This document shows, one piece after another, positions 34,482 through 50,545 of a DNA stretch of 64,000 bases. The stretch's first letter is position 1; the number at the start of each line of letters is the position of its first letter. Origin of the DNA: Crossiella equi (GTDB taxonomy: Bacteria; Actinomycetota; Actinomycetes; Mycobacteriales; Pseudonocardiaceae); contig NZ_JAGIOO010000001.1 in assembly GCF_017876755.1 (NCBI RefSeq), positions 3,023,786-3,087,785 on the forward strand, given 5' to 3'. The notes under the pieces were generated by a model. It searched no databases. It was not told the origin of the DNA and saw nothing but the letters and a program-made list of their open reading frames with translations. A program made the translations under genes and the position numbers.

Positions 34482-34552
34482 GGTGTCAAGAGTAGGACGG
34501 GCGGGTGTGGTTGCCCCGACCAGGTGGCTGCGTTCCCCGAACCGGGTCGTCG

Positions 34553-34590
34553 TTAACACCGGTGAAACACTCAAGTGATGACCGAGCAAC
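34553..34590 (+). promoter_or_regulatory. GlnR-type double operator upstream of glnA
   Basis: TTAAC-n6-GAAAC (34553-34568) matches the actinobacterial GlnR box (gTnAC-n6-GaAAC) at all key positions but the first. A weaker copy, GTGAT-n6-GCAAC, starts exactly 22 bases later (34575-34590). The 22-bp spacing is the one described for paired GlnR sites. It lies about 110-147 bases before the glnA start. Confidence 0.7.
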
Positions 34591-34699
34591 ACCATGGTCA
34601 TACCGTCTGCTCTCAACAGGGGCGGCTTTAGCGCCGTGCTTCCTGGCGGCGTGTACTCGCGCCGGCCCTGCCGGCACAACGACGAAGGAGCCAACGAGG

Positions 34700-36124
34700 G
34701 TGTTCAAAAATCCCGACGAGGTGCTGAAGTTCATTGCCGACAACGGCGTGAAGTTCGTTGACGTGCGGTTCTGCGACCTCCCCGGCATCATGCAGCACTT
34801 CACGATCCCGGCGGCGGCCTTCGAACTCGAGACGTTCCAGGAGGGCCTGGCGTTCGACGGGTCCTCGGTGCGCGGGTTCCAGTCGATCCACGAGTCCGAC
34901 ATGCTGCTGCTGCCCGACGTGGCCACCGCGCGCATCGACCCGTTCCGGATCGAGAAGACCCTCATCATCAACTTCTTCGTGCACGACCCGCTGACGCTGG
35001 AGCCTTACAGCCGCGACCCGCGCAACATCGCGCGCAAGGCCGAGCAGTACATCACCGAGTCCGGCATCGCGGACACCTGCTTCTTCGGCCCCGAGGCCGA
35101 GTTCTACCTCTTCGACTCGGTGCGCTTCGACAGCGCCGAGCACGCCTCCTTCCACGAGATCGACTCCGTCGCGGGCTGGTGGAACACCGGCACCGACGAG
35201 GAGGGCGGCAACAAGGGCTACAAGGTCAAGTTCAAGGGCGGCTACTTCCCGGTCTCCCCGACCGACCACTTCGCCGACCTGCGCGACAAGATCACGCTGA
35301 ACCTGATCGACTCCGGCTTCACCGTCGAGCGCGCCCACCACGAGGTCGGCACCGGCGGTCAGACCGAGATCAACTACAAGTTCAACACGCTGCTGCACGC
35401 CGCGGACGACCTGCAGCTGTTCAAGTACATCGTCAAGAACACCGCGTGGGCCAACGGCAAGACCGCGACGTTCATGCCGAAGCCGCTCTACGGCGACAAC
35501 GGCTCGGGCATGCACGCCCACCAGTCGCTCTGGAAGGACGGCGCGCCGCTCTTCCACGACGAGTCCGGCTACGGCGGCCTGTCCGACACCGCCCGCCACT
35601 ACATCGGCGGCCTGCTGCACCACGCGCCGAGCCTGCTGGCCTTCACCAACCCGACGGTGAACTCCTACCACCGCCTGGTGCCGGGTTACGAGGCGCCGGT
35701 CAACCTGGTGTACAGCTCGCGCAACCGCTCGGCATGCATCCGCATCCCGATCACGGGCAACAACCCGAAGGCCAAGCGCGTCGAGTTCCGCTGCCCGGAC
35801 AGCTCGGGCAACCCGTACCTGGCCTTCTCCGCCATGCTGATGGCCGGCCTGGACGGCATCAAGAACAAGATCGAGCCCCCGGCCCCGATCGACAAGGACC
35901 TCTACGAGCTCCCGCCCGAGGAGGCCAAGAACGTCCCGCAGGTCCCGGGCTCCCTGGGCGAGGTGCTGGACAACCTGGAGCGCGACCACGACTTCCTCCT
36001 CGAGGGCGGCGTGTTCACCCCGGACGTCATCGACACCTGGATCTCCTACAAGCGCGAGAACGAGATCGACCCGATCCGTCTGCGCCCGCACCCGTACGAG
36101 TTCGCGCTTTACTACGACGTGTGA
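34700..36124 (+). CDS. glnA: Glutamine synthetase type I (GSI-beta)
   Basis: Makes glutamine from glutamate, ammonia and ATP; a dodecamer. The 474-residue protein has the catalytic loops [41 protein letters not shown] and the ATP-site NRSACIRIP. Tyr402 in [10 protein letters not shown] is the adenylylation site, consistent with the glnE gene in the window. GTG at 34700 follows AAGGAG at modest distance. Its final codons and stop (36112-36126) are the left copy of a 15-bp direct repeat that bounds the island. The protein itself is complete. Confidence 0.96.
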
Positions 36125-36126
36125 TC
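36112..36126 (+). repeat. Left island repeat (candidate attL)
   Basis: CTACGACGTGTGATC, overlapping the last codons and TGA stop of glnA. It is identical to 46843-46857. Confidence 0.75.
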
Positions 36127-36196
36127 CCGGGAAGCCCTAGAATGGCCTGACCAGCGGATACGCCGTTCAAGTCGCTCTCCCAGGCCGCCTGAGAAC

Positions 36197-36241
36197 CACG
36201 ATCATGGCCCGCCAGCATTGTGCTGGCGGGCCATGATCGTG
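36197..36241. terminator. 21-bp perfect hairpin after glnA
   Basis: Two exact 21-base arms with a TTG loop, 72 bases after the glnA stop and inside the island. It probably now terminates glnA transcription and may shield the island operon. No T-run follows the hairpin. Confidence 0.75.
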
Positions 36242-36824
36242 TTAGGCCGAAAACGATCAACACGAACCATACTCGACCTGGCCTGCGAAAACGTCTCGTT
36301 CTCGCAGGCCAGCCAGTACCCACAATCTGTTACACAAAGTAACCGAGACTCGTCGACGAAGTACCGCCCAGGCCGTTCACGTATGAGAGACCAGCAGGAA
36401 CCCAACTGGTTGTCTTCAGGATCCTTCGTCGCCACAACGTGGTTGTGTGCACAACGGACCAAGAGCCGGTGTGGTGGTCACCGACCCGTCCCGAAGCTCG
36501 CGACGATCTGCCCATACCGAGGCACACCGACCAACTGGCTGGACATGTCAGAGCCAGCAGCTAACTTGACCTGCGTCATCACAAGGCCAGAAGTTGGAGA
36601 TGCACGCGAAGTAGACTCCTCCGATCGCCCGCAGGTATGCCGTGTACGTCACCACGGGCGCCCAGGAGGCCACGTACTCATACCTCGTTTCGCCTCGTTG
36701 CCAGCGTTGGTCAGTCGGAGCGCCTGCCCTGTGCCGGAGGGGCCAGCTGGGCGATGGGTGCTGTCGCACCCATAATGGAAGATGTTCTTGACGCTCAACA
36801 AACGATGCTGGGGGTGATGGCCAG
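36242..36824. other. Island left arm, noncoding or decayed
   Basis: About 580 bases of distinctly lower GC without a convincing gene; several frames of 60-180 codons exist but have no sensible codon bias. A second hairpin is at 36278-36312, with 16-base arms (one mismatch) around TCT. CATAAT at 36772-36777 could be the -10 box of the operon that follows, with no strong -35. Possibly the residue of lost mobility genes. Confidence 0.5.
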
Positions 36825-37124
36825 GTGACGGACGAACTCAGGCCGGCGGATACGACGTTGCCCCGCACGGAACAGCAAGCGGCCATGTGTGGCTGCCACT
36901 TGCCGCCTGAAGTTCGGCCGAGGCCGTCGACGGTGGGCGGCTGGTTCCCCTTCATGTTCGAGGCAAGCGGCTCGAAAATCCGCTACATGACCGGTCGAAA
37001 CAAGCGGCCGCAGGCCCGACCCCCCTTCAACGTCCCGAAGTTCAACGCCAGCGAGGCTACCGACAAGCGGATGCATAGAGGCGGAGCGTCACTTGATTTT
37101 AGGCCGAAGGATGGTGGCGTCTGA
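36825..37124 (+). CDS. Unknown small protein, 99 aa, first gene of the R-M operon
   Basis: A GTG-started frame whose TGA directly abuts the GTG of the helicase gene (37122-37127), so it is almost certainly in that operon if real. The product is basic at the C-terminus, contains a CGCH motif (MCGCHLPPEV, two Cys and a His) and FPFMFEASGSKIRYMTG, and has no transmembrane segment. I do not recognise a family. The start is unsure: no good ribosome binding site is seen apart from CCAGG. Confidence 0.5.
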   Translation: MTDELRPADTTLPRTEQQAAMCGCHLPPEVRPRPSTVGGWFPFMFEASGSKIRYMTGRNKRPQARPPFNVPKFNASEATDKRMHRGGASLDFRPKDGGV

Positions 37125-40100
37125 GTGCGCATCATCGACAACCTCAATGATTTCTTCGGCGACGATCTAAAGGCTTCGATCAAGCCTGGCTCCAAGCTAC
37201 GTATCGCGGCGAGCACGTTCTCAATCTTCGCATTCGAAGCACTGAGGCGCGAACTTCAGTCGATCAAGGAGCTTGAGTTCATCTTCACCGCGCCATCGTT
37301 CACAACGACGAAGGCGACCGACAAGCCCGCACAGGAAAGGCGACAGTTCTTTATCCCGAACGACAAGAGCCAGGACGCCGCACTGTACGGCACTGAGTTC
37401 GAGATTCGGCTGCGCAACAAGCTGACCCAACGGGCCATCGCACGTGAATGCGCTGAGTGGGTGCGACAGAAGGTCACGTTCCGCTCGAATCACACAGGCG
37501 CGCCGATGCAGTCGTTCGCTGTTGTCGATGACACCGCCGCCTACGCACCCCTCCACGGCTTCACGACCGCTGACCTCGGGTATGAGCGCGGCCCCGCAGT
37601 GTCGAACATGGTGCATAAGATCGACGATAAGCTGGCAACGCGCCAATACATGCAGCTCTTCGACCAGATCTGGCGCAACCCAGACCAACTCGACGAGGTG
37701 ACCGAGGCGGTCCGAGAGCACATCGCGAGCGTGTATGCCGAGAACTCCCCGCAGCGGGTGTACTTCCTGATCCTCTACAACCTCTTCAACGAGTTCCTCG
37801 AAGAAATCAGCGAGGACGTGCTGCCGAACGACCGCACCGGATACCAGAGCACCGAGATTTGGAAAGCGCTCTACAATTTCCAGAAGGACGCTGCGACCGG
37901 CGTGATCAACAAGTTGGAGATTTACAGCGGTTGCATCCTCGCCGACAGCGTGGGACTCGGGAAGACGTTCACAGCGCTAGCGGTGATCAAGTACTACGAG
38001 CTGCGCAACAAGACCGTACTCGTACTGGCGCCGAAGAAGCTCGCTGAAAACTGGACGAACTATAACTCGAACTATACAACGAATATCTTCACAAAAGACC
38101 GCTTCAACTACGACGTCCTCGCCCACACCGACCTTTCGCGCGACGGTGGCGAGTCCCTGGGCAAGCGACTGGACCTGATCAACTGGGGCAACTACGACCT
38201 GGTCGTGATCGACGAGTCTCACAACTTCCGCAATGCCGACATCATCGCCCAGCGGGAGACCCGCTACCAGCGGTTGATGCGCAAGGTTATCCGTGCGGGA
38301 GTGAAGACAAAGGTGTTGATGCTCTCCGCGACCCCGGTCAACAACCGCTTCAACGATCTGCGCAATCAGCTGGCCCTAGCCTACGCGGGAGATTCGACAC
38401 AGCTCGCCACGAAGCTCAACATCCAGTCGATCGAGGAGGTGTTCCGGCAAGCCCAGCGCGTCTTCAACGAGTGGTCCGACCTGCCGCCGGAGCTGCGCAC
38501 AACTGACGCCATCCTCGCCCAGCTGGACTTCGACTTCTTCGAGTTGCTGGACGCCGTGACCATCGCCCGCTCGCGCAAACACATCCAGGCGTTCTATGAC
38601 ACGGCCGACATTGGCGCGTTCCCAGAGCGGATGAAGCCGGAATCCCTGCGACCGCCACTGACTGGCTTGTCAGGCGTTCCGACATTCAATGAGATCTTCG
38701 AACAGCTCCAGCTACTGACCCTGGCGGTCTACACCCCGCTGGCGTACGTGTTCGAAAGCCGCCGAGACAAGTACGAGCAGATCTACGGGGCAGGTGCCGG
38801 CCAGAACTACATGGGTGGCGAAAACGCGAACCTTGGCGCAGCGAACCGCGAGCAGGGCATCCGCAAGCTGATGACGGTGAACCTGCTCAAGCGACTGGAG
38901 AGCAGTATCGAGGCGTTCCGCCTGACCCTTAACCGGCTGGAATACGCGGTCACCGACGCCATCAAAGCTGTGGACAACCACGCCGCGAACATCGCCGACA
39001 TCGTCTCTGCGTTCACCGACGTGGACACCAACGATGACGACTTCGAGTTCCCCACCAGCGGCACGGTCGGCCGGAAGGTGCAGATCGACCTTGCTGACAT
39101 GGATGTCGAGTCGTGGAGCCGCGACCTCGCCCACGACGGCACGGTGATCCAGAACCTGCTGCGCTCGGTCAGCGGCATCACCCCCGAGCACGATTCCAAG
39201 CTTCGCGCGCTGCTCGAGCGGCTCGACGCCAAGTTCCAGCAACCGCTGAACCCCGGCAACCGCAAGGTTCTGATCTTTTCCGCGTTCGCCGACACGGCCG
39301 AGTACCTCTACAAGAACCTCGCCCCAGCGCTGAAGCGGCACGGCTACCACAGTGCCCTCGTCACCGGCCAGGGCAACCCGTCCACGACGGTCGGCAAGGG
39401 ATACAGCTTCCAGCAGATCCTCACCCTGTTTTCCCCGCAGTCGAAGCAGCGTCACCTGGTGATGCCGCAGGAGACCTCGGAGATCGATCTACTAGTCGGC
39501 ACCGACTGCATCAGTGAGGGTCAGAACCTCCAGGACTGCGACTTCCTGGTCAATTACGACATACACTGGAACCCCGTTCGGATCATTCAGCGATTTGGCC
39601 GAATCGATCGTATCGGCTCGACCAACGAGCGCATCCAGCTTGTGAACTTCTGGCCAGACATCTCGCTAGACGAATACATCAACCTCAAGGAGCGCGTCGA
39701 GAACCGCATGGTCGCCGCCAACCTCGGCGGAACAGGCGACGACAACATTCTCGACCCGGAGGCCAGCGATGCCGCATTCCGAAAGGAGCAGCTCCGCAAG
39801 CTTCAGGACGAAGTAATCGAACTCGAAGACGTTCGCACCGGCGTATCGATCACTGACCTCGGCCTGAACGACTTCCGCATGGACCTGCTCGGTTACCTCA
39901 AGGAGTACGGCGACCTGGCCGGCACCCCGAAGGGGCTGCACGCGGTCGTCCCCGCCCAGCCCGAAAAGGGGCTCAAGCCCGGCGCGATCTTCGTGCTGCG
40001 CAACATCAACGCCGACCAGCACCTCAACCGCGGCAACAGGCTGCACCCTCACTACCTCGTCTACCTCGACGACGACAGACAGGTGATCGCCGATCACACC

Positions 40101-40394
40101 GAGGTCAAGCACCTGCTCGACCTGATCCGCGCTGGATGCCGGAACCGTGACGAGCCCGCATGGGAGGTGTGCCGCGTTTTTAACGCTGCCACTCGCGATG
40201 GGGCCGAAATGGGCACGTACAGTCGCTTGCTCACCGATGCGATCCGCTCGATGATCGACCTCACCACCGAGCGCGACGTCGACAGCCTGTTCAGTCCCGG
40301 CCACACGACTGCGCTCGCGCAGACCATCGCCGGGCTCGATGACTTCGAGCTGATCGCCTTCCTCGCCATCGTCGCGGAGCCCACCAATGATTGA
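37125..40394 (+). CDS. SNF2-type helicase with phospholipase D-like N-terminus
   Basis: A 1089-residue superfamily 2 translocase. Residues about 20-190 resemble a PLD-like domain as found in this helicase group (KLRIAASTFSIFAFEALRRE) but show no HKD catalytic motif. Motor motifs: Walker A GLGKT at 277-281 (DSVGLGKTFTA), DESH at 363-366, SATP at 401-404, and the SNF2 motif VI QRFGRIDRIG at 822-831. In many bacteria this protein type is encoded with DUF4391 and type III Mod/Res genes, as here. It may translocate on foreign DNA or remodel the R-M complex (inference). Its end overlaps the DUF4391 gene by 8 bases. Confidence 0.9.
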   Translation: MRIIDNLNDFFGDDLKASIKPGSKLRIAASTFSIFAFEALRRELQSIKELEFIFTAPSFTTTKATDKPAQERRQFFIPNDKSQDAALYGTEFEIRLRNKLTQRAIARECAEWVRQKVTFRSNHTGAPMQSFAVVDDTAAYAPLHGFTTADLGYERGPAVSNMVHKIDDKLATRQYMQLFDQIWRNPDQLDEVTEAVREHIASVYAENSPQRVYFLILYNLFNEFLEEISEDVLPNDRTGYQSTEIWKALYNFQKDAATGVINKLEIYSGCILADSVGLGKTFTALAVIKYYELRNKTVLVLAPKKLAENWTNYNSNYTTNIFTKDRFNYDVLAHTDLSRDGGESLGKRLDLINWGNYDLVVIDESHNFRNADIIAQRETRYQRLMRKVIRAGVKTKVLMLSATPVNNRFNDLRNQLALAYAGDSTQLATKLNIQSIEEVFRQAQRVFNEWSDLPPELRTTDAILAQLDFDFFELLDAVTIARSRKHIQAFYDTADIGAFPERMKPESLRPPLTGLSGVPTFNEIFEQLQLLTLAVYTPLAYVFESRRDKYEQIYGAGAGQNYMGGENANLGAANREQGIRKLMTVNLLKRLESSIEAFRLTLNRLEYAVTDAIKAVDNHAANIADIVSAFTDVDTNDDDFEFPTSGTVGRKVQIDLADMDVESWSRDLAHDGTVIQNLLRSVSGITPEHDSKLRALLERLDAKFQQPLNPGNRKVLIFSAFADTAEYLYKNLAPALKRHGYHSALVTGQGNPSTTVGKGYSFQQILTLFSPQSKQRHLVMPQETSEIDLLVGTDCISEGQNLQDCDFLVNYDIHWNPVRIIQRFGRIDRIGSTNERIQLVNFWPDISLDEYINLKERVENRMVAANLGGTGDDNILDPEASDAAFRKEQLRKLQDEVIELEDVRTGVSITDLGLNDFRMDLLGYLKEYGDLAGTPKGLHAVVPAQPEKGLKPGAIFVLRNINADQHLNRGNRLHPHYLVYLDDDRQVIADHTEVKHLLDLIRAGCRNRDEPAWEVCRVFNAATRDGAEMGTYSRLLTDAIRSMIDLTTERDVDSLFSPGHTTALAQTIAGLDDFELIAFLAIVAEPTND

Positions 40395-41100
40395 CGTCTC
40401 ACCGGCGGTCGAAACTGCCGGAACCAACCCGGTTCTATACCGCTGGCCCGCGAACGCCGCGTTCGGCCGCACCGTCCCTAAGACAAAGTTCTACGAGCAT
40501 GGCAACGTCCGCACCGCGCTGCGCGAGAAATTCGTCAACGACATTCAGCGCATCACCTGGGCCTACAAGCTCGCCGACAACACCATCCGCCTGCGCGGCA
40601 CGACCGCGGTGCCCGAGATCCAGATCTTCACCGTCGAGACCAAAGGTGAGGATGTCTCCGACGACGTGCTGACCGCCATCGACAGATCTGTGCACTTCCC
40701 GATCATCTTCGAAGTCGCTGGTAACGACCGTCTGCGCACGGTCGCGGCCCAGAAGGCGCTCGACGGCAAAGTGCCGAAGATCGGACCGTACTTCACGACC
40801 GGCTGGCAACCCTTTGACGCGCCCCGCCAACCTCTACCCCCGGCGCTCAATCTGCCGGGCCTGTACGAGGCGATACTCGCATCGCTACTACCGGTCATGA
40901 CGCGCGTCGGCGAGACGGTCTCACAGGCAACCGAAAGACTGGGCCGTGCCCGCAAGCTCGAGCGTGAGATCGCCGCACTGAACAAGAAGCTGCGCACCGA
41001 ACCACAACTCAACCGCAAGATCGAACTCCGCAAGCAGATCAAGGAACGCACCGCAGTGCTCACCGAGCTGATCGACCTCACCTCGAACAACAAGGAATGA
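40387..41100 (+). CDS. DUF4391 protein
   Basis: A 237-residue protein of the DUF4391 family, which is typically encoded between a SNF2-like helicase and a type III Mod gene. The N-terminal part (NPVLYRWPANAAFGRTVPKT, KFVNDIQRITWAYKLA) has the Trp-Tyr-Lys pattern I associate with the family. The C-terminal 60 residues form a predicted coiled coil (ERLGRARKLEREIAALNKKL). Biochemical role unknown. It starts inside the end of the helicase gene and its TGA overlaps the mod ATG (ATGA), indicating translational coupling. Confidence 0.82.
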   Translation: MIDVSPAVETAGTNPVLYRWPANAAFGRTVPKTKFYEHGNVRTALREKFVNDIQRITWAYKLADNTIRLRGTTAVPEIQIFTVETKGEDVSDDVLTAIDRSVHFPIIFEVAGNDRLRTVAAQKALDGKVPKIGPYFTTGWQPFDAPRQPLPPALNLPGLYEAILASLLPVMTRVGETVSQATERLGRARKLEREIAALNKKLRTEPQLNRKIELRKQIKERTAVLTELIDLTSNNKE

Positions 41101-43061
41101 CAGTGGACAAGCTCAAGATGCACTCGCCAGACCTAACCCAGCGCAACATCGACGCCATCGCCAAGCTGTTCCCCACGGTCGTCACCGAGACGCTCGACTC
41201 CGATGGCAAGCCGGTGCGCGCCGTCGACTTCGATCTGCTGCGCCAGGAACTCTCCGACCACCTCATTGAGGGACCGCAGGAGCGCTACCAGCTCGACTGG
41301 CCCGGCAAGCGCGCAGCTGCCTTCGCCGCCAACGCGCCGATTGCCAAGACCTTGCGCCCTGTCCGCGACGAGTCGGTCGACTTCGACACGAGCCGGAACC
41401 TTTTCATCGAGGGTGACAACCTTGAGGCGCTCAAGCTGCTCCAGGAGTCGTACCTCGGCAAGATCAAGTTGATCTACATCGACCCGCCCTACAACACCGG
41501 CAACGACTTCGTCTACGAGGACGACTTCGCCGAGTCGAGCGCCGACTACCTCACCCGCTCGAGCCAGAAGTCTGAGAGCGGCGACCGCCTCATCGCAAAC
41601 ACCGAGGCGAACGGTCGCTTCCACTCCGACTGGCTCGGCATGATGTACTCCCGGCTGAAGCTGGCCCGCGGTCTGCTGTCCGACGACGGTGTCATGATCG
41701 TCGCCATCGACGACCACGAGCATGGGAACCTCCGCTTGCTCCTCGACCAGGTCCTCGGGTCGGAGAACTTCATCGCGAATGTGACGTGGCAGGGCAGTGG
41801 GAAGAACGACGCGCGCTACACCGCGGGCGGCGTGGACTACATGCTCATCTACGCCAAGAACGAGCGTCTGCTTCGTTCTCTCGACACTCGCTGGAAGGAG
41901 CCCAAGCCCGGGATTGAGGAAGTTGAGGCGGTTGCTCGCCGTGCCTGGCAGCAGTCGGGGGGTGACCCCGCGAAGGCAACCGCGATCTTTCGCAGTGGAG
42001 TCAGGGCGATCAAGGCTGACCTGGAGCCAGCCGTGTTCCGATACGACCAGATCGACGACGACGGTCGCGTCTTCCAAGCGGACAACATTACGAGCCCAAA
42101 CCCGCGTCCCAACCTCATGTACGAGATAATGCATCCGGGGACCGGAAAGGCCGTTCGGACGCCGACAAATGGCTGGCGCTACTCGCGCGAGACGATGGAC
42201 GAACTGATCGCTCAGGGACGAGTTCTGTTCGGGCCCGATGAGACAACCTCGCCACGCATTAAGAAGTTCCTGGCGGAGCAAGGCGATCGCGTTCCGTACC
42301 CAACCTTCACGCAGTCACGCATGCCGGGCACCAAGAAGCTCGATGACTTGCTGGGCGCCGATGTCTTCGACTACCCGAAGGACACCGCCGTCCTGGCACG
42401 TTGGATCGGCGCGATCACCCGAGACACTCCGGACGCACTCATCCTCGATTTCTTTGCCGGCTCTGGCTCGACTGGCCACGCCGTCATGGAGCTCAATGCG
42501 GCAGATGGCGGGCATCGCCGATACATCCTTGTCCAACTCGACGAGGCAGTTGACCATCCTGACTACGACTCCATCGCCGACATCGCCCGTGAGCGCCTAC
42601 GCCGTGCCGGCGCACGAGTGAAGCAGGAGGGTGGGCTGCTGGGTGCCGACCTCGACGTCGGATTTCGGTCGCTGCACGTTGCCACGACCAACATGGCTGA
42701 CACGCTCGCGACCGCCGACGACCTGGTGCAGGACGCGCTCATCGACGCGATCGGCAGCGTCAAGCCCGGCCGCACAGACGAAGACCTGCTCTTCCAGGTG
42801 CTGCTCGACTGGGGGCTCGACCTCGCCGAGCCGATCACGGTCAAGGAGGTCGATGCCCGGCGAGTGCTGTCGGTCGCCGATGGCGCTCTGATCGCGTGCT
42901 TTGCCGACGACATCACCGACGGTGTTGTGAAGGCGATCGCCGAGCAGCATCCGCTGCGCGCCGTGTTCCTGGATGCGGGCTTCGCGAGCGACGCCGCACG
43001 CATCAACGCTGAGCAGATCTTCCGCGAGGTGTCACCCGAGACAGAGGTAAAGGCGATCTGA
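41097..43061 (+). CDS. mod: Type III DNA methyltransferase (Mod), N6-adenine, beta class
   Basis: The specificity and modification subunit of a type III R-M system; methylates adenine on one strand of an asymmetric site. At 654 residues it has motif IV DPPYNTG at 129-135 before motif I DFFAGSGSTGHA at 451-462, the beta-class order. NLFIEGDNLEALKLLQESYL precedes the active site as usual. The target-recognition region (about 230-420) is, as expected, the least familiar part, so the recognition site cannot be predicted. ATG at 41097 overlaps the DUF4391 stop; a GTG at 41103 is an alternative. Confidence 0.93.
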   Translation: MTVDKLKMHSPDLTQRNIDAIAKLFPTVVTETLDSDGKPVRAVDFDLLRQELSDHLIEGPQERYQLDWPGKRAAAFAANAPIAKTLRPVRDESVDFDTSRNLFIEGDNLEALKLLQESYLGKIKLIYIDPPYNTGNDFVYEDDFAESSADYLTRSSQKSESGDRLIANTEANGRFHSDWLGMMYSRLKLARGLLSDDGVMIVAIDDHEHGNLRLLLDQVLGSENFIANVTWQGSGKNDARYTAGGVDYMLIYAKNERLLRSLDTRWKEPKPGIEEVEAVARRAWQQSGGDPAKATAIFRSGVRAIKADLEPAVFRYDQIDDDGRVFQADNITSPNPRPNLMYEIMHPGTGKAVRTPTNGWRYSRETMDELIAQGRVLFGPDETTSPRIKKFLAEQGDRVPYPTFTQSRMPGTKKLDDLLGADVFDYPKDTAVLARWIGAITRDTPDALILDFFAGSGSTGHAVMELNAADGGHRRYILVQLDEAVDHPDYDSIADIARERLRRAGARVKQEGGLLGADLDVGFRSLHVATTNMADTLATADDLVQDALIDAIGSVKPGRTDEDLLFQVLLDWGLDLAEPITVKEVDARRVLSVADGALIACFADDITDGVVKAIAEQHPLRAVFLDAGFASDAARINAEQIFREVSPETEVKAI

Positions 43062-43065
43062 CCCG

Positions 43066-46000
43066 ATGAAGCTCCAGTTCAAGGTCCAGCAGTACCAGAC
43101 CGAGGCCGTCGATGCCGTTGTCGACGTGTTCACCGGGCAGCCGTACGCCGACGGCGTGAAGTACCGCATCGACCCCGGCAAGGACGCTGCGCAAACCTTG
43201 CTGGAGCACGCCGGTCTGCGCAACGCGGAGATCGCTCTGACGCCCCCCCAGCTACTGGCGAACGTGCACCGGGTGCAACAGGCGCGCGGGCTGGAGCAGT
43301 CGAAGGACCTCAAGGACCCCGTCAAGAAGTCAGCGGCCCCGATCAATCTCGACGTCGAGATGGAAACCGGTACGGGCAAGACCTACGTGTACATCAAGAC
43401 GATCATGGAGCTGCACAAGCGGTACGGGTGGTCGAAGTACATCGTGGTCGTGCCGTCGATTGCGATCCGCGAGGGCGTGAAGAAGTCCTTCGACATCACT
43501 GCCGAGCACTTCCAGCAGCTCTACGGCACCAAGCCTCGCACGTTCGTCTACAACTCCTCGCGGCTGCACGAGCTGGAGCGGTTCTCCTCCGACTCGGGCG
43601 TGCAGGTGATGATCATCAACATCCAGGCGTTCAACGCCACTGGCAAGGACGCCCGCCGCATCTACGAGGTGCTCGACGACTTCCAGTCGCGAAGGCCGAT
43701 CGACGTGATCGCGGCGAACCGTCCGGTTCTGATCATCGATGAGCCGCAGAAGATCGAGGGCGATGGGAAGAAGCCGTCGAAATCGCTGGAGGCGCTCGGG
43801 TTGTTCAAGGCGCTGTTCGCTTTGCGCTACTCGGCGACCCACAAGATCGAGCGCACCAAGGTGCACCGCCTGGACGCCGTAGATGCGTACAACCAGAAGC
43901 TGGTGAAGAAGATCGCGGTGCGCGGCATCACGGTCAAGCACCTGGCCGGCAGCACCGCCTACTTGTACGTGGACGGGTTGGAGGTCGGCAAAGGCACGGA
44001 CTTCCCGAAGGCTCGGGTCGAACTGGAGGTGCAGACCGCCCAGGGCATCAGGCGGCAGGTGAAACGGCTGAGCCAGGGCATGAATCTGCACGACATCTCC
44101 GGCGGCATCGAGGCGTACAAGGGCCTGTTCATCCGGGATGTCGATGCGAACCGCGACATCATCGAGCTGAGCAACGGCGACATCATCGGCGCCGGCGAGG
44201 TCACCCAGGATGTCACCGACGATGCGAAGCGCCGCATCCAGATCCGGGAAGTCATCCGCGCCCACCTCGATAAAGAGCGCGAGCTGTTCGCGCAGGGCAT
44301 CAAGGCACTGTCACTGTTCTTCATCGACGAGGTCGCCAAATACCGCGACTATGACCGCGAGGACACGCTGGGCGAGTACGCCCGCGTGTTCGAGGAGGAG
44401 TACGAGGCGGTACTCACCGACTACCTGGGCCAGCTCGACTTTGACGAGGCCGCCGAGCGGTACCGCGCGCATGTCGAGGCGATCCCGGTGCGATCGACGC
44501 ACGAGGGCTACTTCTCGATCGACAAGAAGACCGGCCGCTCCATCGACGGCAAGATCGCCGCGCGTGGCGACTTCGCAGGCCAGTCGGACGACGTCGATGC
44601 CTACGACCTGATCCTCAAGGACAAGGAGCGGCTTCTGTCGTTCGAGGAGCCGGTGCGGTTCATCTGGTCGCACTCGGCGCTGCGCGAGGGCTGGGACAAC
44701 CCAAATGTGTTCGTCATGGGCATGCTCAAGAAGAGCGACAACACCACCACGCGGCGACAGGAGATCGGCCGAGGCCTGCGCCTGTCGGTCGACCAGCACG
44801 GCGAGCGGATGGACAACCCCGTCACTGTCCACGACATCAACGAGCTAACCGTCGTCACCGACGAGTCGTACACCGACTTCGTCACCGCCCTGCAGAAGGA
44901 GATCATCGAGTCGCTGTCGGCCCGCCCGCGCAAGGCGACCGTCGACTACTTCATCGGCAAGCAGATCAAGCTCGCCGACGGCTCCACCAGCGTGCTGGAG
45001 AAGTCGCTGGCGCAGGCGCTCTACAACCACCTGATCCGTAACGACTACATCGACGACGACGGCCTGGTGACACAGGCGTACAGGGACGCCCGCGCCAACG
45101 GAACGCTCGCCGCACCCGTGGCCGAAGTGCTCAAGCCGGTCATCGACTTCGTGTGGCCGCTCGTCGATGCGCTGTACCTCGACGTGCCCAAGCCGACCGA
45201 CGGCCGCAAGCCGAAGAAGATCCCGTTCAACGAGGCGAACTTCAAGAAGCGCGAGTTCCAAGAGCTGTGGAGCCGCATCAACCACAAGTGCGTCTACCAG
45301 GTCGAGTTCGACTCCTCCGAGCTGATCAAGAACTGCATCCACACGCTCGACAAGTCGCTCAACGTCACAGTCATGCAGTACCTCGTCGAGGCAGGCAAGC
45401 AAGTCGTGGGACTTGAAGTCGAGCAGCTCGAAGCAGGGACCGGGTTCAAGGTTTCGGAGACGAAGGTCGAGCACTCAGCCGTCTCGGCGGGCTCCACAGT
45501 CAAGTACGACCTGCTCGGCGAAATCGCGGAGAAGACCCAGCTCACCCGTCGGACCTGCGCGGCAATCCTTACAGGCATCAACCCCGGCACGTTCGCGAAG
45601 TTCAAGCAGAACCCCGAGCAGTTCATCACCGAGGCCGCCCGGCTCATCAACGAGCAGAAGGCCACGGTGATCGTCGAGCACCTCAGCTACGACCCGATCG
45701 ATGGCCGCTACGACTCCTCGATCTTCACCGAGAATCAGACCGCGCAAGACCTGTCGAAGGCCGGCGACAAGCTCAAGAAGAGCGTCTACGAGTACGTGGT
45801 CACCGACTCGAAGGTCGAGCGGTTGTTCGTCGAGAAGCTCGACGTCAGCGACGAGGTCGTCGTCTACTCCAAGCTGCCGCGCGGATTCTTCATCCCAACC
45901 CCGGTCGGCGACTACAACCCGGACTGGGCGATCGCCTTCCGCGATGGCAAGGTCAAGCACGTCTACTTCGTCGCCGAGACCAAGGGCACGATGTCCACGC

Positions 46001-46143
46001 TCCAGCTCAAGGGAATCGAGGAAGCAAAGATCGAGTGTGCTCGGAAGTTTTTCAGGTCGCTCAACGAGAAGGCAGGCACCGAGAACGTCGCCTACGACGT
46101 GGTCGACACGTTCGAGAACCTGCTCCAGCTCGTGAGGGCGTAA
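43066..46143 (+). CDS. res: Type III restriction subunit (Res), helicase-nuclease
   Basis: The 1025-residue ATP-dependent endonuclease partner of Mod. The superfamily 2 helicase core has Walker A METGTGKT at 99-106, DEPQ at 225-228 and RRQEIGRGLRLSVD as motif VI. The C-terminal PD-(D/E)xK nuclease is intact: Pro952-Asp953 (YNPDWAIAF) and Glu971-x-Lys973 (FVAETKG). It starts 4 bases after mod. All key residues are present, so the restriction activity should be functional. The operon seems to end here. Confidence 0.93.
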   Translation: MKLQFKVQQYQTEAVDAVVDVFTGQPYADGVKYRIDPGKDAAQTLLEHAGLRNAEIALTPPQLLANVHRVQQARGLEQSKDLKDPVKKSAAPINLDVEMETGTGKTYVYIKTIMELHKRYGWSKYIVVVPSIAIREGVKKSFDITAEHFQQLYGTKPRTFVYNSSRLHELERFSSDSGVQVMIINIQAFNATGKDARRIYEVLDDFQSRRPIDVIAANRPVLIIDEPQKIEGDGKKPSKSLEALGLFKALFALRYSATHKIERTKVHRLDAVDAYNQKLVKKIAVRGITVKHLAGSTAYLYVDGLEVGKGTDFPKARVELEVQTAQGIRRQVKRLSQGMNLHDISGGIEAYKGLFIRDVDANRDIIELSNGDIIGAGEVTQDVTDDAKRRIQIREVIRAHLDKERELFAQGIKALSLFFIDEVAKYRDYDREDTLGEYARVFEEEYEAVLTDYLGQLDFDEAAERYRAHVEAIPVRSTHEGYFSIDKKTGRSIDGKIAARGDFAGQSDDVDAYDLILKDKERLLSFEEPVRFIWSHSALREGWDNPNVFVMGMLKKSDNTTTRRQEIGRGLRLSVDQHGERMDNPVTVHDINELTVVTDESYTDFVTALQKEIIESLSARPRKATVDYFIGKQIKLADGSTSVLEKSLAQALYNHLIRNDYIDDDGLVTQAYRDARANGTLAAPVAEVLKPVIDFVWPLVDALYLDVPKPTDGRKPKKIPFNEANFKKREFQELWSRINHKCVYQVEFDSSELIKNCIHTLDKSLNVTVMQYLVEAGKQVVGLEVEQLEAGTGFKVSETKVEHSAVSAGSTVKYDLLGEIAEKTQLTRRTCAAILTGINPGTFAKFKQNPEQFITEAARLINEQKATVIVEHLSYDPIDGRYDSSIFTENQTAQDLSKAGDKLKKSVYEYVVTDSKVERLFVEKLDVSDEVVVYSKLPRGFFIPTPVGDYNPDWAIAFRDGKVKHVYFVAETKGTMSTLQLKGIEEAKIECARKFFRSLNEKAGTENVAYDVVDTFENLLQLVRA

Positions 46144-46261
46144 CTGAGGGTAAGTTCCTCAGGATTGACGACCGGGTTCGGCCCGGCTGGGCAGGGCAAG
46201 CGCGGAGATTTGATCAAGATCTCCCAGCGGACACTGGGTATGCCATGGTTCATCCTCTGAC

Positions 46262-46487
46262 CTGGCATGCCCGCATCGCTTGGTTCGATGACCACGGTGT
46301 GGCGCGGTTTCCGGCCAGCAGGTCCAAGCTCCGGCAGGGCGGAATCACCATGACCAGCACCGGCGGCCGGCCGAGCTGTCCGAACCCAGTGAGATGTCCA
46401 CCGGCGGGAACCACTGGTCGCACTGGGCCAGCTCCCCGGGCCGGTAGCCGGTCCGCGACTCCGGGTCCGGTGGGGGAGTGTCCCTAT
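46262..46487 (-). pseudogene. IS21-family transposase (IstA) fragment, frameshifted
   Basis: Read on the minus strand, one frame gives DPESRTGYRPGELAQCDQWF then PPVDISLG. The neighbouring frame continues GQLGRPPVLVMV, then IPPCRSLDLLAG. This matches, from memory, the core of IS21-type IstA (RTxYxPGELAQ, WFPPVDIPLGFGQ, RPPVLVMV, MIPSRQAPDLLAG). A single-base shift and a short deletion after LVMV have broken it. The boundaries are approximate. Confidence 0.6.
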
Positions 46488-46777
46488 GGTTGTTGTCAAG
46501 CTGTCGGCGAACTCTGGGCTTCGGATTCAGCTTCGCGGCAAGCTAGGTAGGTGGGCCGGTCGGCTCGTGCTGCGAGCACGTCGGCGATGGATAGTTTGAT
46601 GACGGCGCAGCCGCTGAGTGAGCAGGTTCATGGGGCGCTCGCGTCGATGAGGAAATGCCGCCGATCTCGTCGCTGTCGTCGATGTGAGGGCAAAGCACCG
46701 GGTGTACGAGCAGTCCTCGTAGAACCCAGGCCGTCATACGGTGAAGAATGTTGATCGGCAACGACTGACAACAACCA
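46487..46777. repeat. 12-bp inverted repeat pair, 291 bp apart
   Basis: TGGTTGTTGTCA at 46487-46498 and its exact complement at 46766-46777. They could be the ends of a small non-autonomous element or of a decayed insertion sequence. The left copy abuts the IS21-like remnant. Confidence 0.5.
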
Positions 46778-46842
46778 CAAACCACCAGTTCAAATACGGT
46801 ACTGCTGACAAAGATGCAGTTCAGCGAATCGGCCGCACGCAC

Positions 46843-46857
46843 CTACGACGTGTGATC
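46843..46857 (+). repeat. Right island repeat (candidate attR)
   Basis: CTACGACGTGTGATC, identical to the end of glnA. It is preceded by unrelated sequence, so it is a repeat of only the last 15 bases and not a longer gene copy. Confidence 0.75.
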
Positions 46858-46880
46858 GGCACGGCGTACTGAGTCGCACC

Positions 46881-46937
46881 GCACAACGGCCGAGGGCCGG
46901 GTGGTCGTCACGACCACCCGGCCCTCGGCCGTTGTGC
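46881..46937. terminator. 27-bp perfect hairpin, possibly the original glnA terminator
   Basis: Two exact 27-base arms with a TCA loop, starting 24 bases right of the island repeat and ending 4 bases before the stop of the convergent-facing lipoprotein gene. If the island is removed it would lie about 37 bases after the glnA stop, the expected place for its terminator. It now serves the minus-strand gene. Confidence 0.8.
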
Positions 46938-46940
46938 GCC

Positions 46941-47360
46941 TCAGCCGAGCTCCTTGGCCACCTCGTTGACCACGTCGGCGGGCAGTGCGGTGCGGCCGGT
47001 GTCCAGCAGCCAGCGTTCCAGGGTGCGGTCGGCGGCGTCGCGCGTGGTGCCGTCCGGTTGGTGGACGGCGCGGTGGACGCGGGTGGGTGGGGTGTTGGTG
47101 GACAAGCGGACCAGGAAGCCCCGGTAGCCCAGGTTGTCCGGGGGTGGGGTGGAGGCGGTGGTGGGCAGGGCTTCCAGGCGTTCGCGGAGCTCGGTGGACT
47201 GGGTGGTGGTGAGGGTCCAGGTCGGGTTCGGGCGGCCTGAGTAGAGGTCCAGTTCGACCTCGACCGGGGTGGGGGTGGGCATCGGCTTGTCTCCCGTCTG
47301 GCCCGGGCCGCACGCGGTCAGGGCCACGGTCAGGAGTACCAGGGCCAGTGGGGGTCTCAT
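46941..47360 (-). CDS. Putative lipoprotein with SGxPNPxW domain, 139 aa
   Basis: The N-terminal hydrophobic segment ends in a lipobox, LTAC, with Cys17 as the lipidation site, then a Pro/Thr linker. The rest (VEVELDLYSGRPNPTW at 33-48, then LGYRGFLVRL) is closely similar to the N-terminal half of the upstream protein, so the two genes share a duplicated domain of unknown function. Its ATG overlaps the upstream stop (ATGA), so they form one operon. It is expected on the outer face of the membrane. Confidence 0.8.
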   Translation of the reverse strand: MRPPLALVLLTVALTACGPGQTGDKPMPTPTPVEVELDLYSGRPNPTWTLTTTQSTELRERLEALPTTASTPPPDNLGYRGFLVRLSTNTPPTRVHRAVHQPDGTTRDAADRTLERWLLDTGRTALPADVVNEVAKELG

Positions 47361-48313
47361 GCCACGTAGGCCGTGTTGTTGTTCTGGTAGAAGTAGCCGC
47401 AGAAGTCGGTGTAGGGGCCCCGGCAGATGTTGTTCGGGGCGTAGCCCCGGCCGTTCTCCTGGTAGATCGCGTGGCCGCAGTCGTCGGTGTACTTGGCCGG
47501 GGTGGCGCCCGGTTTGTGGCCCCACCACCAGTTCGGGCCACCCGTCACCAGACGGTAGAAGTGGTAGTCCCGGCCCGGCCAGATGACCATCGCGATGGTC
47601 AGGGTGTTCTGCTGGCAGCTGTCCGACCAGCCGTCGGCACGCAGGCCGTCGGTGACGCCGCCGCAGGTGATCGAGGTGGCCGGCCGGCCGCCCCGGCGGC
47701 CCGGCAGGGCGTAGCGCACGTCGGCCAGGTGGTTGCTGGCAAAGCAGTAGCAGTTGTTGATGCCGATGTGCGCCGGGTCGTTGAAGTACTGGGCGTTCGC
47801 GCTGAACAGGTTCGAGCCGCACGCCCACCACGTGCTGCCCAGCACGCCCAGGTCACCGCGTTCGTTGGCCGTGTCCGGGTGCTCGCCGTCGGTGGACTCG
47901 GGCAGGGCGCCCGCCGGGCTCGCCGACTGGGCCGCGGTGCGCAGCAGGCTCACGCCCTGGGCGGCGAGCTCGGTCAGCTCCTCGTCCACGCCGCTGTCCC
48001 GGACCGATGCCGAGGTGCCCAGCAGCCAGTCCGCGATCGGCTCGGCCGCGGGACGGCTGCCCACGCGGAAGTTCAGCGGCAGGCTCGCGCCGTTGGCCAG
48101 GCGGGTGTTCTGCCAGGCGCCCTCGGTCGACTTGATCATGCGGACGACCAGGCCGCGGTAGCCCAGGCTGAACTGCTCGTCCTCGGTGGCCACCGGGGAC
48201 AGCTGTTCCGGGGCGGAGGTAACGCGGGCGACCAGCTCGCGTTCGTCGGCCTCGGACAGGTGCCAGGTCGGGTTCGGCATCCCGGAGAAGATGTCCAGTT
48301 CCACTTCCAGCAT
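47357..48313 (-). CDS. Two-domain protein: SGxPNPxW domain plus Cys-rich C-terminal domain, 318 aa
   Basis: Residues 3-120 carry EVELDIFSGMPNPTW and LGYRGLVVRMI, the same domain as the downstream lipoprotein. Residues about 170-318 contain seven or more cysteines, NNCYCFASNHLA (Cys near 187), ALPGRRGGRP, GRDYHFYRLV, WWGHKPGATPAKYTDD and RGPYTDFCGYFYQ. I recall this C-terminal block in other uncharacterised bacterial proteins. A Cys followed by a His could mean a papain-like hydrolase fold (speculative). No signal peptide is visible, although the Cys content suggests an extracellular protein. GTG/ATG choice: ATG at 48313 after GGGGGAA. Confidence 0.75.
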   Translation of the reverse strand: MLEVELDIFSGMPNPTWHLSEADERELVARVTSAPEQLSPVATEDEQFSLGYRGLVVRMIKSTEGAWQNTRLANGASLPLNFRVGSRPAAEPIADWLLGTSASVRDSGVDEELTELAAQGVSLLRTAAQSASPAGALPESTDGEHPDTANERGDLGVLGSTWWACGSNLFSANAQYFNDPAHIGINNCYCFASNHLADVRYALPGRRGGRPATSITCGGVTDGLRADGWSDSCQQNTLTIAMVIWPGRDYHFYRLVTGGPNWWWGHKPGATPAKYTDDCGHAIYQENGRGYAPNNICRGPYTDFCGYFYQNNNTAYVA

Positions 48314-48451
48314 GGTGGTTCCCCCTTGCCGTGGCGGGCGGGGCCGCCCGCCTGTCCCCAGTAGAGACCCGGGCGGGGCGGGGCGGACGGCCGTGGGACG
48401 GGATTGGGCCCAACGGCCGCCCCAACGGGCCGGGGTTCTAGGTAACACCGG

Positions 48452-50443
48452 TCAGACGCGGCGGCGCACGTGCAGCAGGTACTCCTTGCGGTCCAACGGG
48501 TTGTGGTCGGTGCGGGCCCGCGTCGGCACGGCCGTGCCGCGTACCGGGTGGTGGCGGGCGAACACGCACTCCAGCTCGCCCTCGCCGCGGGTCAGGCCGG
48601 GCAGGAGCTGCCGCAGCGGGTGGATCGCGGTGGCGGGCAGCTCCCCCGTCAGGTGGCAGACGCCGCTGTGCGCGGTGGTGCTGGTGGCCACCGCGCGGTA
48701 CCGCGTGAGCACGGGGCCGAGGACGGGCAGCACGTCCGCCGGGGCCGCCAGGTGGAAGCGGTGCAGCGGTTCGCACACCGTGGTGCCCGCCTGCGCCAGC
48801 GCGCGCATGAGCACCAGTGGGGTCAACTGCCGGAAGTCGCCCGCGGTGCTCGACATGCTCTTGTCGAATACCGCGTGCGAGTGACTCTGCCGTGGCCAGT
48901 AACCGGAATGGGTCATCGTGACCTGGCAGTCCAGCACCTGCCAGCCGTGCAGTCCCGCCGCCAAGGTGACGCGGACGGTCTCCTCGACCGCCTTGAGGAA
49001 CGCCGGTGGCAGCGCGCCGAGCTCGAACCCGATGCCGAAGGTGGTGCCGCTGCCGGGCGGGCCGGGTTCCACCCGCAGGCCGACCGTGGCCAGGAAAGGG
49101 TTGTCCCCCAACGCGATCACCTCCAGGGCGTGCCCGGTGCCGTGGACGCGTTCCACGCAGATCGTGGTGGTCTCGCGGAAGTCCACGGCCACGCCGTACT
49201 CGGTGTGCAGCACGGCCCGCAGGACCTCCTTCTGCACCTCCCCGTACAGCGACACCGCGAGCTCCCGACGCACGTCGTCCTGCCGGACGTCGATCAGCGG
49301 GTCCTGTTCGGCGAGCTGGGCCAGTGCCGCGTGCAGCGCGCCCCACTCACGCGGATCCGCCGGTACCACAACGGTTTCCAGCGTCGGCGGGGCGAACTGG
49401 CGGGGCACCACCGGGGGCGGTGCGCTGCCGACCGCATCGCCGATCCGCACTTCGCCCAGACCCCACACCCGGCCGATGCGACCGGCGGTCAGCACCTCCG
49501 CGCGCTGGGCGCCACCCCGGTCGAACACGCTGAGCGCGGTCACCCGACCCACACGGGAGCCGGGGCCACCGACCGGCAGGCGGTCGCGGGTGCGGACCGT
49601 GCCGGAGAACAGGCGCAGGTAGGCGATCCGCTCCCCCGCCGGGCCGCGCTCGACCTTGAACACCGTGCCGGACACCGGTTCCCCGGCCGCACCGGTGCTC
49701 GCTGGCAGCAGGCCGGTGATGCCACCGACCAGCTCGGCCACCCCGGCGCCGGTGATCGCCGAGCCGAAGTACACCGGGGTCACCAGGCCGCGGCGGGTCT
49801 GCTCGACCAGGCCCGCCCGCAGCCGGGGCCAGTCCGCCGCGGGACCGTGCACGTAGGCGGCGAGCAGGTCCTCGTCGTGTTCGGCCAGCAGTTCAGCCAG
49901 GCGGGTGAGGAACGGGGGCTCGGTTCCCCGGAACGGGGTGATCTCGGCGGCGGAGGTGCCCGGTCGGCGCACCCCCGCCATGGGCACCACGGCCGGGGTG
50001 AGGCGGTCGGCGACCTCGGCCAGCACCCGCGCCGGGTCCGCACCGCCCCGGTCGATCTTGTTCACGAAGACCAACACCGGGATCCCCAAGCGCCGCAACG
50101 ACTTCAGCAGCACCCGGGTCTGCGCCTGCACGCCCTCGACAGCGGAGACGACCAGCACCGCGCCGTCCAGCACGCCAAGCACGCGCTCGACCTCGGCGAT
50201 GAAGTCCGGGTGGCCGGGGGTGTCGATGAGGTTGACCGCGACGTCGTCCACCACGAACGAGACGACCGCGGACTTGATGGTGATGCCCCGTTGCCGTTCC
50301 AGGGCGAGGGAATCGGTCTGGGTGCTGCCCTCGTCGACGCTGCCCGGCTCGTCGAGGACCCCGGCGGCGTGCAGCAGCCGCTCGGTCAGGCTCGTCTTAC
50401 CGGCGTCGACGTGCGCCAGGATGCCCAGGTTGACGGTACGCAC
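48452..50443 (-). CDS. TetM/OtrA-type ribosomal protection GTPase (tetracycline resistance family)
   Basis: A 663-residue EF-G-like GTPase that would release tetracyclines from the ribosome. GTPase motifs: AHVDAGKTSL (G1, about 10-19), RGITIKSAV, DTPGHPDF and NKIDRGG. The C-terminal part, with DFRETTTICVERVHGTGHA and TMTHSGYWPRQSHSHAVFD (domain IV of ribosomal protection proteins), separates it from true EF-G. GTG at 50443 is preceded by GAAGGA. A leader ORF with a better ribosome binding site overlaps the start. In antibiotic-producing actinomycetes such genes may be self-protection or WhiB7-regulon genes; no tetracycline cluster is visible here. Confidence 0.9.
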   Translation of the reverse strand: MRTVNLGILAHVDAGKTSLTERLLHAAGVLDEPGSVDEGSTQTDSLALERQRGITIKSAVVSFVVDDVAVNLIDTPGHPDFIAEVERVLGVLDGAVLVVSAVEGVQAQTRVLLKSLRRLGIPVLVFVNKIDRGGADPARVLAEVADRLTPAVVPMAGVRRPGTSAAEITPFRGTEPPFLTRLAELLAEHDEDLLAAYVHGPAADWPRLRAGLVEQTRRGLVTPVYFGSAITGAGVAELVGGITGLLPASTGAAGEPVSGTVFKVERGPAGERIAYLRLFSGTVRTRDRLPVGGPGSRVGRVTALSVFDRGGAQRAEVLTAGRIGRVWGLGEVRIGDAVGSAPPPVVPRQFAPPTLETVVVPADPREWGALHAALAQLAEQDPLIDVRQDDVRRELAVSLYGEVQKEVLRAVLHTEYGVAVDFRETTTICVERVHGTGHALEVIALGDNPFLATVGLRVEPGPPGSGTTFGIGFELGALPPAFLKAVEETVRVTLAAGLHGWQVLDCQVTMTHSGYWPRQSHSHAVFDKSMSSTAGDFRQLTPLVLMRALAQAGTTVCEPLHRFHLAAPADVLPVLGPVLTRYRAVATSTTAHSGVCHLTGELPATAIHPLRQLLPGLTRGEGELECVFARHHPVRGTAVPTRARTDHNPLDRKEYLLHVRRRV

Positions 50444-50507
50444 CAGCGTTCGTGTCCTTCGCTGAGGAGGCGGTGGCCAGCGGGGTGGACCAGAACGCAG
50501 CTCGCAT
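50397..50507 (-). CDS. Candidate regulatory leader peptide of the ribosomal protection gene, 36 aa
   Basis: An ATG at 50507 preceded by AAGGAG at ideal spacing opens a 36-codon frame (MRAAFWSTPLATASS...) that runs past the GTG start of the GTPase in another frame and ends inside its P-loop codons. Short, well-translated leader ORFs before genes that protect the ribosome often couple induction to ribosome stalling. The overlap would make translation of the leader compete with, or reinitiate at, the GTPase start. Not proven. Confidence 0.5.
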   Translation of the reverse strand: MRAAFWSTPLATASSAKDTNAGAYRQPGHPGARRRR

Positions 50508-50545
50508 GACCGGGCTCCTTGGCGTTGGTGGTGCGGACGGCGGTG

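Follow-up and report, generated by a model that had tools for sequence, protein, structure and literature searches.

What do a SNF2-type helicase and a protein of the DUF4391 family contribute to a type III restriction-modification (R-M) operon? The question is raised by an operon of the actinomycete Crossiella equi (RefSeq assembly GCF_017876755.1), found in a stretch of 64,000 nucleotides (contig NZ_JAGIOO010000001.1, positions 3,023,786 to 3,087,785 of the forward strand) that is called the window here and whose numbering is used throughout. According to the listing of open reading frames (ORFs), four genes follow one another on the same strand:

37125..40394, plus strand: HEL, the helicase; GTG start, 1089 residues; N-terminal domain of phospholipase D (PLD) fold, then a SNF2/RapA-like motor
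40387..41100, plus strand: DUF4391 protein, 237 residues; alpha/beta domain and coiled-coil hairpin; proposed adaptor
41097..43061, plus strand: Mod, 654 residues; type III beta-class amino-methyltransferase, like EcoP15I Mod
43066..46143, plus strand: Res, 1025 residues; type III helicase-nuclease, like EcoP15I Res

The reading we favour, tentatively and at a little less than an even chance, is a four-component ATP-dependent R-M system in which an EcoP15I-like Mod-Res enzyme is joined by a HEL motor and a DUF4391 adaptor. Mod and Res would form an EcoP15I-like enzyme, with Mod recognising and methylating the target and Res cutting through its PD-(D/E)XK domain; DUF4391 would tie HEL to the methyltransferase subunit; and HEL would translocate along the duplex of unmodified foreign DNA and move, load or stimulate the Mod-Res complex. 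An active HEL motor would then be added to an enzyme whose Res ATPase works mainly as a switch, as the type III Res ATPase has been described (PMC7913695). We infer complex formation, translocation, the adaptor role and phage defence from the linkage of HEL and DUF4391, 4-base gene overlaps, correlated distances, two groups of Res scores, an apparent hand-over of the nuclease function, the tie between DUF4391 and methyltransferases, the behaviour of SauUSI and the defence genes inside the operon of relatives. As a rule, accounts of type III restriction name two genes; the four-gene form seen here turns up repeatedly, in several phyla, on plasmids (including those of E. coli, Enterococcus, Acinetobacter and one archaeon) and in phage records, and the proposal is a first functional hypothesis for DUF4391.

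A recurrent and co-evolving gene set

HEL and DUF4391 overlap by 8 bases, DUF4391 and Mod overlap by 4, and a gap of 4 bases separates Mod from Res. An earlier note on this DNA had described five tightly packed genes on one strand; the packing stands for these four, and the fifth, a small ORF in front of HEL, does not belong with them, as set out below. HEL was the seed for a collection of loci from other genomes (L numbers for loci, G numbers for genomes). The 80 genome loci are the best 80 of 581 confirmed, and because only the best matches were retained their counts are biased towards close kin; a viral set of 76 loci from 103 confirmed, at 37–73% identity, corrects this in part. The pooled set holds 176 loci (the window, L014-L105, L176-L180, L196, L285 and L199-L274), of which 168 were kept with a HEL above 900 bits and 900 residues; the eight with a HEL below threshold were L015, L018, L248, L254, L264, L266, L271 and L285. 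DUF4391 was counted by profiles (phmmer misses divergent members), and the count of the earlier model was used, since that of the iterated model for the viral set, 59 of 64, may include the methylase-fused L258. The structure alignment omitted L011, L012 and L013.

The gene order recurs in other genomes, so that the arrangement is not a matter of chance. DUF4391 lies downstream of HEL in 77 of the 80 genome loci; the remaining three contigs stop inside HEL or 559 bases past its end. Of the 77, 76 have Mod, and Res follows Mod in 74; the overlap of HEL and DUF4391 is exactly 4 bases in 38, and seven have more than 300 bases between the two. In the pooled set, which supplies the co-occurrence count called for by the earlier note, DUF4391 follows HEL in 153 of 168 loci, together with Mod and Res (above 100 bits) in 136, with Mod only in ten and with neither in seven, most of the incomplete cases having little sequence downstream. 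The other 15 HELs comprise nine at contig ends (0–559 bases downstream), five followed by a type IIG-like methylase and one followed by Res alone. Apart from the nine contig-end HELs and six that have DUF4391 but no more than 1009 bases downstream, 153 HELs remain, and 152 of them precede Mod, Res or a type IIG-like methylase.

The same linkage is seen across a phylum. Of 396 Actinomycetota genomes, 13 have DUF4391; 12, all of them among those 13, have a HEL scoring at least 700 bits, the next helicase scoring 328. Res at 1170 bits or more is likewise found in 12 genomes, all with DUF4391, and Res at 895 bits or less in 11 others, so that the scores form two groups. Neither DUF4391 nor a HEL-family helicase was found in the stretches read around other type III Mod-Res loci of the phylum. 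Distance-matrix correlations between the four proteins in 80 four-gene loci (L017 and L166 excluded) run from 0.755 to 0.943, against a largest value of 0.369 in 500 permutations per pair, and a tree of Res needs 3 label changes against 8.7 in shuffles, with long branches and from a quick tree search that gave warnings. Mean identities are 0.62 for HEL, 0.57 for Res, 0.47 for Mod and 0.37 for DUF4391. A single functional system is likely, given genes that are almost always linked, reading frames that overlap, proteins that evolve in correlation and a block that moves as a whole; the same observations uphold the view of the earlier note that this is more than a plain Mod-Res pair.

In genome G346 the operon is split, with HEL, DUF4391, an OLD-type ATPase and Mod in one place (L017) and Res about 125 kb away (L166), where it is adjoined by an 88-residue Mod-like fragment.

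Intact and lost catalytic motifs

Mod matches the PADLOC profile MTase_III (1.1e-206) and is homologous to EcoP15I Mod (E 1e-110). It has an S-adenosylmethionine motif, is of the beta class and carries DPPY at residues 129-132, a motif present in 80 of 80 loci. Res matches REase_III of PADLOC (E 0) and RE_endonuc (2.6e-32) and is homologous to EcoP15I Res (E 2.1e-109); its superfamily 2 motifs are METGTGKT from residue 99 and DEPQ from residue 225, and its C-terminal PD-(D/E)XK nuclease has D953, E971 and K973. The first of these residues is kept in 76 of 80 loci and the other two in 77, the exceptions being three gaps and one N at 953. Motifs checked in both proteins are thus nearly invariant in the 80 four-gene loci, as the earlier claim of intact catalytic motifs had it. 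With an EcoP15I-like Mod, an EcoP15I-like Res and adjacent mod and res genes, the locus has the sequence features of type III R-M.

The two genes are adjacent in the window, and relatives often have genes between them. A family of about 550 residues lies between Mod and Res in 15 loci (L033, L042, L048, L055, L060 and ten more) and is a Schlafen AlbA_2 plus HATPase protein in the member scanned (L048). Genes of RhuM, Bro-N, 23S rRNA intervening-protein (IVP), GmrSD, UvrD-like and RecF-like type occupy the Mod-Res slot or neighbouring slots, so that genes of defence type (Schlafen AlbA_2, GmrSD, RecF-like AAA) lie inside the operon of relatives. Five loci (L016, L029, L033, L059 and L097) have two tandem Mod genes before Res, possibly two specificities sharing one Res.

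HEL matches SNF2-rel_dom of Pfam (4.5e-12) and the PADLOC profile PDLC01075 'HKD+Snf2' (2.1e-129; C3a139), for which the PADLOC output gives no function and whose name C3a139 was not found in the Creative Commons (CC)-licensed literature. Its best PDB match by sequence profile is the RNA polymerase-associated ATPase RapA (E 1.7e-12). Residues 1 to about 199 take a PLD fold, by structure match of a predicted model and at moderate confidence, the closest fold being SauUSI (PDB 7clg); SNF2/RapA-like motor motifs follow, and those checked are nearly invariant in the 80 four-gene loci. The HxK position of the PLD motif is occupied by M128 and S130 in the window, and none of 89 aligned HEL rows has HxK there, one row being gapped. 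The SNF2/PLD-like helicase of the earlier note is therefore right as to the SNF2 motor and the fold, and the catalytic HxK is absent; HEL has the fold of the PLD (HKD) nucleases and lacks their catalytic motif. Having lost its nuclease motif, the N-terminal domain probably serves in dimerisation or as a DNA clamp. SauUSI is a dimer joined by its PLD domains and an ATP-driven translocase (PMC7913695).

The DUF4391 protein is assigned by Pfam (PF14335, 1.2e-44) and has no PADLOC or NCBIfam match. Its AlphaFold2 model is confident (mean predicted local distance difference test, pLDDT, 92.4; predicted template modelling score 0.86) and consists of an alpha/beta domain at about 25-167 and a coiled-coil hairpin at 178-229 with helices 178-204 and 208-229, which agrees with the coiled-coil tail noticed earlier. 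Structural matches are confined to the hairpin and are to coiled-coil structures; the globular part has no confident fold match (searched with the whole-protein model), and no PDB sequence matches better than E 0.69. The most conserved residues, P21, K32, E77, E205 and Q207, form no recognised active-site pattern. In the CC-licensed literature the word DUF4391 was found only in a table of enriched domains (PMC7784981). There the domain is associated with Actinomyces strains nonpermissive for the epibiont TM7x, in 3 of 3 against 1 of 10 and 1 of 10, which are small numbers (PMC7784981).

A second arrangement bears on the roles of both proteins. In five viral-contig loci (L250, L257, L258, L259 and L268) HEL precedes a long methylase in place of DUF4391; three of the five methylases were scanned and gave Eco57I/MmeI-type matches, at 1200, 1560 and 1307 residues. 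Membership of this type IIG-like class rests on a profile made from four of the five, by which L258 was classed, and the methylase of L257 is cut by the contig end. Neither Mod nor Res was found in the 8 kb downstream of four of these HELs, the fifth contig ending in the methylase. All five HELs have HGK and GSSNFT, and HxK with GSxN occurs in none of 163 other HELs (L214 and L252 show H.K by pattern, off the motif position and without GSxN). A Planktothrix plasmid HEL, below 900 bits and so outside the count, has a PLDc_2 match with HAK and GSSN and precedes a 711-residue protein with methylase matches. Weak DUF4391 matches (Pfam 8.6e-5 and 0.001) lie at about residues 105-216 of two of the three methylases scanned, and profile-profile comparison of methylase and DUF4391 gives a probability of 56.5% (E 1.1e-4), against 1.1% and 0.2% in two control comparisons. 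With moderate confidence, on sequence comparison, a DUF4391-like domain appears to be fused to the type IIG-like methylase.

The nuclease motif of HEL is thus gone beside DUF4391-Mod(-Res) and present beside the type IIG-like methylase, which suggests that the lasting role of HEL is that of a motor and that Res took over cutting. DUF4391 is tied to a methyltransferase in both arrangements and is absent from L253, where HEL is followed by Res without Mod, and this suggests an adaptor for the recognition subunit. A bolder proposal, possible but more doubtful than the four-component system itself, is that HEL-DUF4391 is a transferable motor-and-adaptor module for unrelated methyltransferases, with a PLD-cutting HEL beside the type IIG-like methylase and a pure translocase beside Mod-Res. 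If so, these type III enzymes would actively translocate, unlike the diffusing 'switch' enzymes of the EcoP15I model. The proposal is weakened by six motif-less HELs without Res in the 8-10 kb downstream. HELs with and without the nuclease motif beside different methylases make a division of labour between motor and cutter testable.

The loss of HxK and the likeness to RapA would also suit a role of HEL and DUF4391 as control parts that displace Mod-Res from host DNA or limit it (at replication, or at single sites), preventing self-restriction, and the degree of conservation, highest in HEL and lowest in DUF4391 among the four proteins, fits this explanation. However, other type III Mod-Res loci of the phylum have no such partners in the stretches read, and the sister group with its intact PLD motif suggests an ancestral role of HEL in restriction; we consider control parts improbable. 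Sensors or targets of phage inhibitors are often fast-evolving, and DUF4391 is the fastest-evolving of the four proteins, as would be expected if HEL and DUF4391 sensed an infection signal, such as modified phage DNA or replication intermediates, and licensed Mod-Res, a sensing role of the kind suggested in the earlier note. Recognition is already provided by Mod, however, and no fold is recognised for the globular part of DUF4391, so that sensing seems to us very improbable.

Several observations weigh against the four-component system. Five loci with Mod (L235, L228, L224, L065 and L017) have no Res above 100 bits in about 8-10 kb downstream, and L269, which has HEL and DUF4391, has neither Mod nor Res above that score in about 8 kb, so that here DUF4391 is present and no methylase was found; HxK is lost in these six HELs all the same, which counts against a strict rule of nuclease hand-over. 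G380 has DUF4391-Mod-Res without HEL, and L253 has HEL-Res without DUF4391 or Mod. The model of the HEL N-terminus has a mean pLDDT of only 70.4. In the sister arrangement both DUF4391-like matches are below the Pfam cut-off, the third scanned methylase (L259) has no DUF4391 match, and the profile-profile probability is not decisive. No experiment on the present operon was found in the CC-licensed literature, and Eco86II, whose extra helicase is of another family, was reportedly able to methylate, and in part to cleave, in its absence (PMC8259958), which by analogy would tell against a need for HEL.

L269, G380, Eco86II and the stacking of other defence genes inside the operon of relatives would be equally at home with two stacked defences, in which Mod-Res is an ordinary, self-sufficient type III enzyme and HEL-DUF4391 a second, independent device under the same promoter. 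Against stacking, all but one of the 153 HELs with enough downstream sequence precede Mod, Res or a type IIG-like methylase, and the four proteins evolve in correlation. Since the HEL beside Mod-Res lacks the nuclease motif, an independent device would moreover be left without a known cutter. Stacking is thus unlikely in our judgement.

Comparison with known systems

No description of the DUF4391 four-gene unit was found in the CC-licensed literature, from which absence from print is not claimed. The resemblance to EcoP15I (Mod2Res1, PDB 4zcf) is one of clear Mod and Res homology, but the EcoP15I complex consists of these two subunits, whereas HEL and DUF4391 are near-constant partners in the present operon.

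Closer in layout are the N4-methylcytosine type III systems Eco86II and BspHIV, which include an additional helicase-like ATPase (Murray et al. 2021, PMC8259958). They share an ATPase gene upstream of mod and res, an arrangement for which the authors cite more than 500 genomes, and the extra helicase of Eco86II is reported to be unneeded for methyltransferase activity and to have gone undetected in a partially cleaving preparation (PMC8259958). L277 was taken as the Eco86II locus of NCTC86 from its gene order, in a reading of two 50-kb stretches of that genome. This probable Eco86II locus is annotated as a SNF2 protein of 963 residues, a methyltransferase of 1040 and a DEAD/DEAH protein of 1126, with no DUF4391 annotated. 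Its helicase can be aligned from end to end with the L167, L168 and L170 helicases (40-43%), whereas its alignment with HEL is restricted to the motor, and the HEL profile gives it 118 bits against at least 1257 for four HELs in the same test. The mark taken for the Eco86II subgroup is a homologous ATPase immediately 5' of mod; the present operon lacks it, since HEL belongs to a different helicase family and is separated from mod by DUF4391, a comparison in which the identity of L277 is taken from gene order as above. In BspHIV the spacing of helicase and mod, about 140 bp (PMC8259958), is too little for DUF4391. L167, L168 and L170 are type III Mod-Res pairs with an Eco86II-type SNF2 helicase upstream, so that at least two families of SNF2 motor have become associated with type III genes.

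Other systems resemble HEL and its partners in single features. Orf33-34 of the Lactococcus plasmid pLd8, a PLD-SNF2 protein and a type IIG methylase without restriction domain, fits the sister arrangement of a HEL with PLD motif and a type IIG-like methylase, compared by description only, and the excerpt names no Mod-Res (PMC6098607). SauUSI, unlike HEL, keeps H(X)K(X)4E and has a C-terminal SRA target-recognition domain, all in a single protein (PMC7913695). The Type-2 systems related to bacteriophage exclusion (BREX) combine an HKD-Swi2/Snf2 helicase, an N6-methylase and a small partner, DUF3780; they differ in having their own DUF499 and DUF3780 and HKD as the primary effector, and the excerpt mentions no Mod-Res (PMC12839542). 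HEL shares motor similarity with DrmD of DISARM at 149 bits (NCBIfam), far below the cut-off of 610; membership of DISARM was rejected on this score and on the partner genes, which are DUF4391, Mod and Res.

The glnA island and other carriers

The operon moves as one block. It lies in a segment that is absent from the sister genome G397, where window positions 34048-36135 and 46887-48341 are only 6 bases apart:

36136..46886, strand not assigned: segment absent from G397 (empty site); GC lower than in the flanks
36112..36126, plus strand: left 15-bp direct repeat; 3' end of glnA including the stop codon, resembling an attachment site
46843..46857, plus strand: right 15-bp direct repeat, exact copy of the left one

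The operon has a GC content of 0.58-0.64, against mostly 0.67-0.75 beyond it. The 15-bp repeat also flanks a 10.6-kb element in G398 (from the L194/L195/L197 set of glnA loci) with a phage-type integrase (3.8e-18), a pSAM2-type RepSA (5.6e-100) and an FtsK-like protein (5.7e-12), that is, an actinomycete integrative and conjugative element (AICE), and a 2.8-kb segment in G396 that bears an integrase. The site occupied by the operon is therefore an AICE attachment site, and in this genus elements integrate at the 3' end of glnA: an AICE in G398, an integrase segment in G396 and the R-M island here, the site being empty in G397. With its flanking direct repeats and the empty site, the island may be akin to the cis-mobilizable elements (att-flanked, without integrase); the operon is the only recognised cargo in a family scan that covered part of the island ORFs, namely the four operon genes, the small ORF and a further ORF. 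DUF4391 is in none of four other genomes sampled from the genus and in two of 200 from the family, those of the host and of G521, which also has HEL, Mod and Res.

Farther afield, a search at E up to 1e-50 gave HEL relatives on 111 plasmid records, and one at E up to 1e-30 gave them in 5 phage records. The order HEL-DUF4391-Mod-Res is annotated on E. coli and Mycolicibacterium plasmids; the E. coli version matches 10 of 5426 E. coli genomes, nine over at least 80% of the query, and 10 of 11 places are on plasmids. The Acinetobacter plasmid version has an IS1 element within Mod, an Enterococcus plasmid and the Erysipelothrix phage phi1605 have the DUF4391 gene under another name, and Lactococcus and archaeal Methanomethylovorans plasmids have the operon with inserted genes. 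The annotation of a Desulforapulum plasmid shows only HEL, DUF4391 and a methylase, and that of a Latilactobacillus plasmid calls the genes after HEL hypothetical.

The remaining ORF of the supposed five-gene operon is:

36825..37124, plus strand: small ORF, 99 residues; judged no gene of the system

It has no Pfam, PADLOC or NCBIfam match, its GC at codon position 2 is an unusual 0.56 against 0.35-0.43 in the four operon genes, and a tblastn search of the 2-kb regions upstream of related HELs found, besides itself, nothing better than E 0.38. It was ruled out as a member on these three grounds. Among 256 ORFs of at least 70 residues upstream of HEL no constant gene was found, the families having at most five members; one family of four is an HTH_17 protein (member scanned, L028).

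Two strong hairpins lie near the ends of the island, at 36197-36241 (left end, inside) and 46885-46933 (right end, outside the repeat), with predicted energies of -52 and -66 kcal/mol for the stretches folded; the right one is also present in sister genomes. Downstream of the island, 48452-50575 on the minus strand encodes a GTPase with elongation-factor-G domains, which by eye only resembles ribosomal protection proteins.

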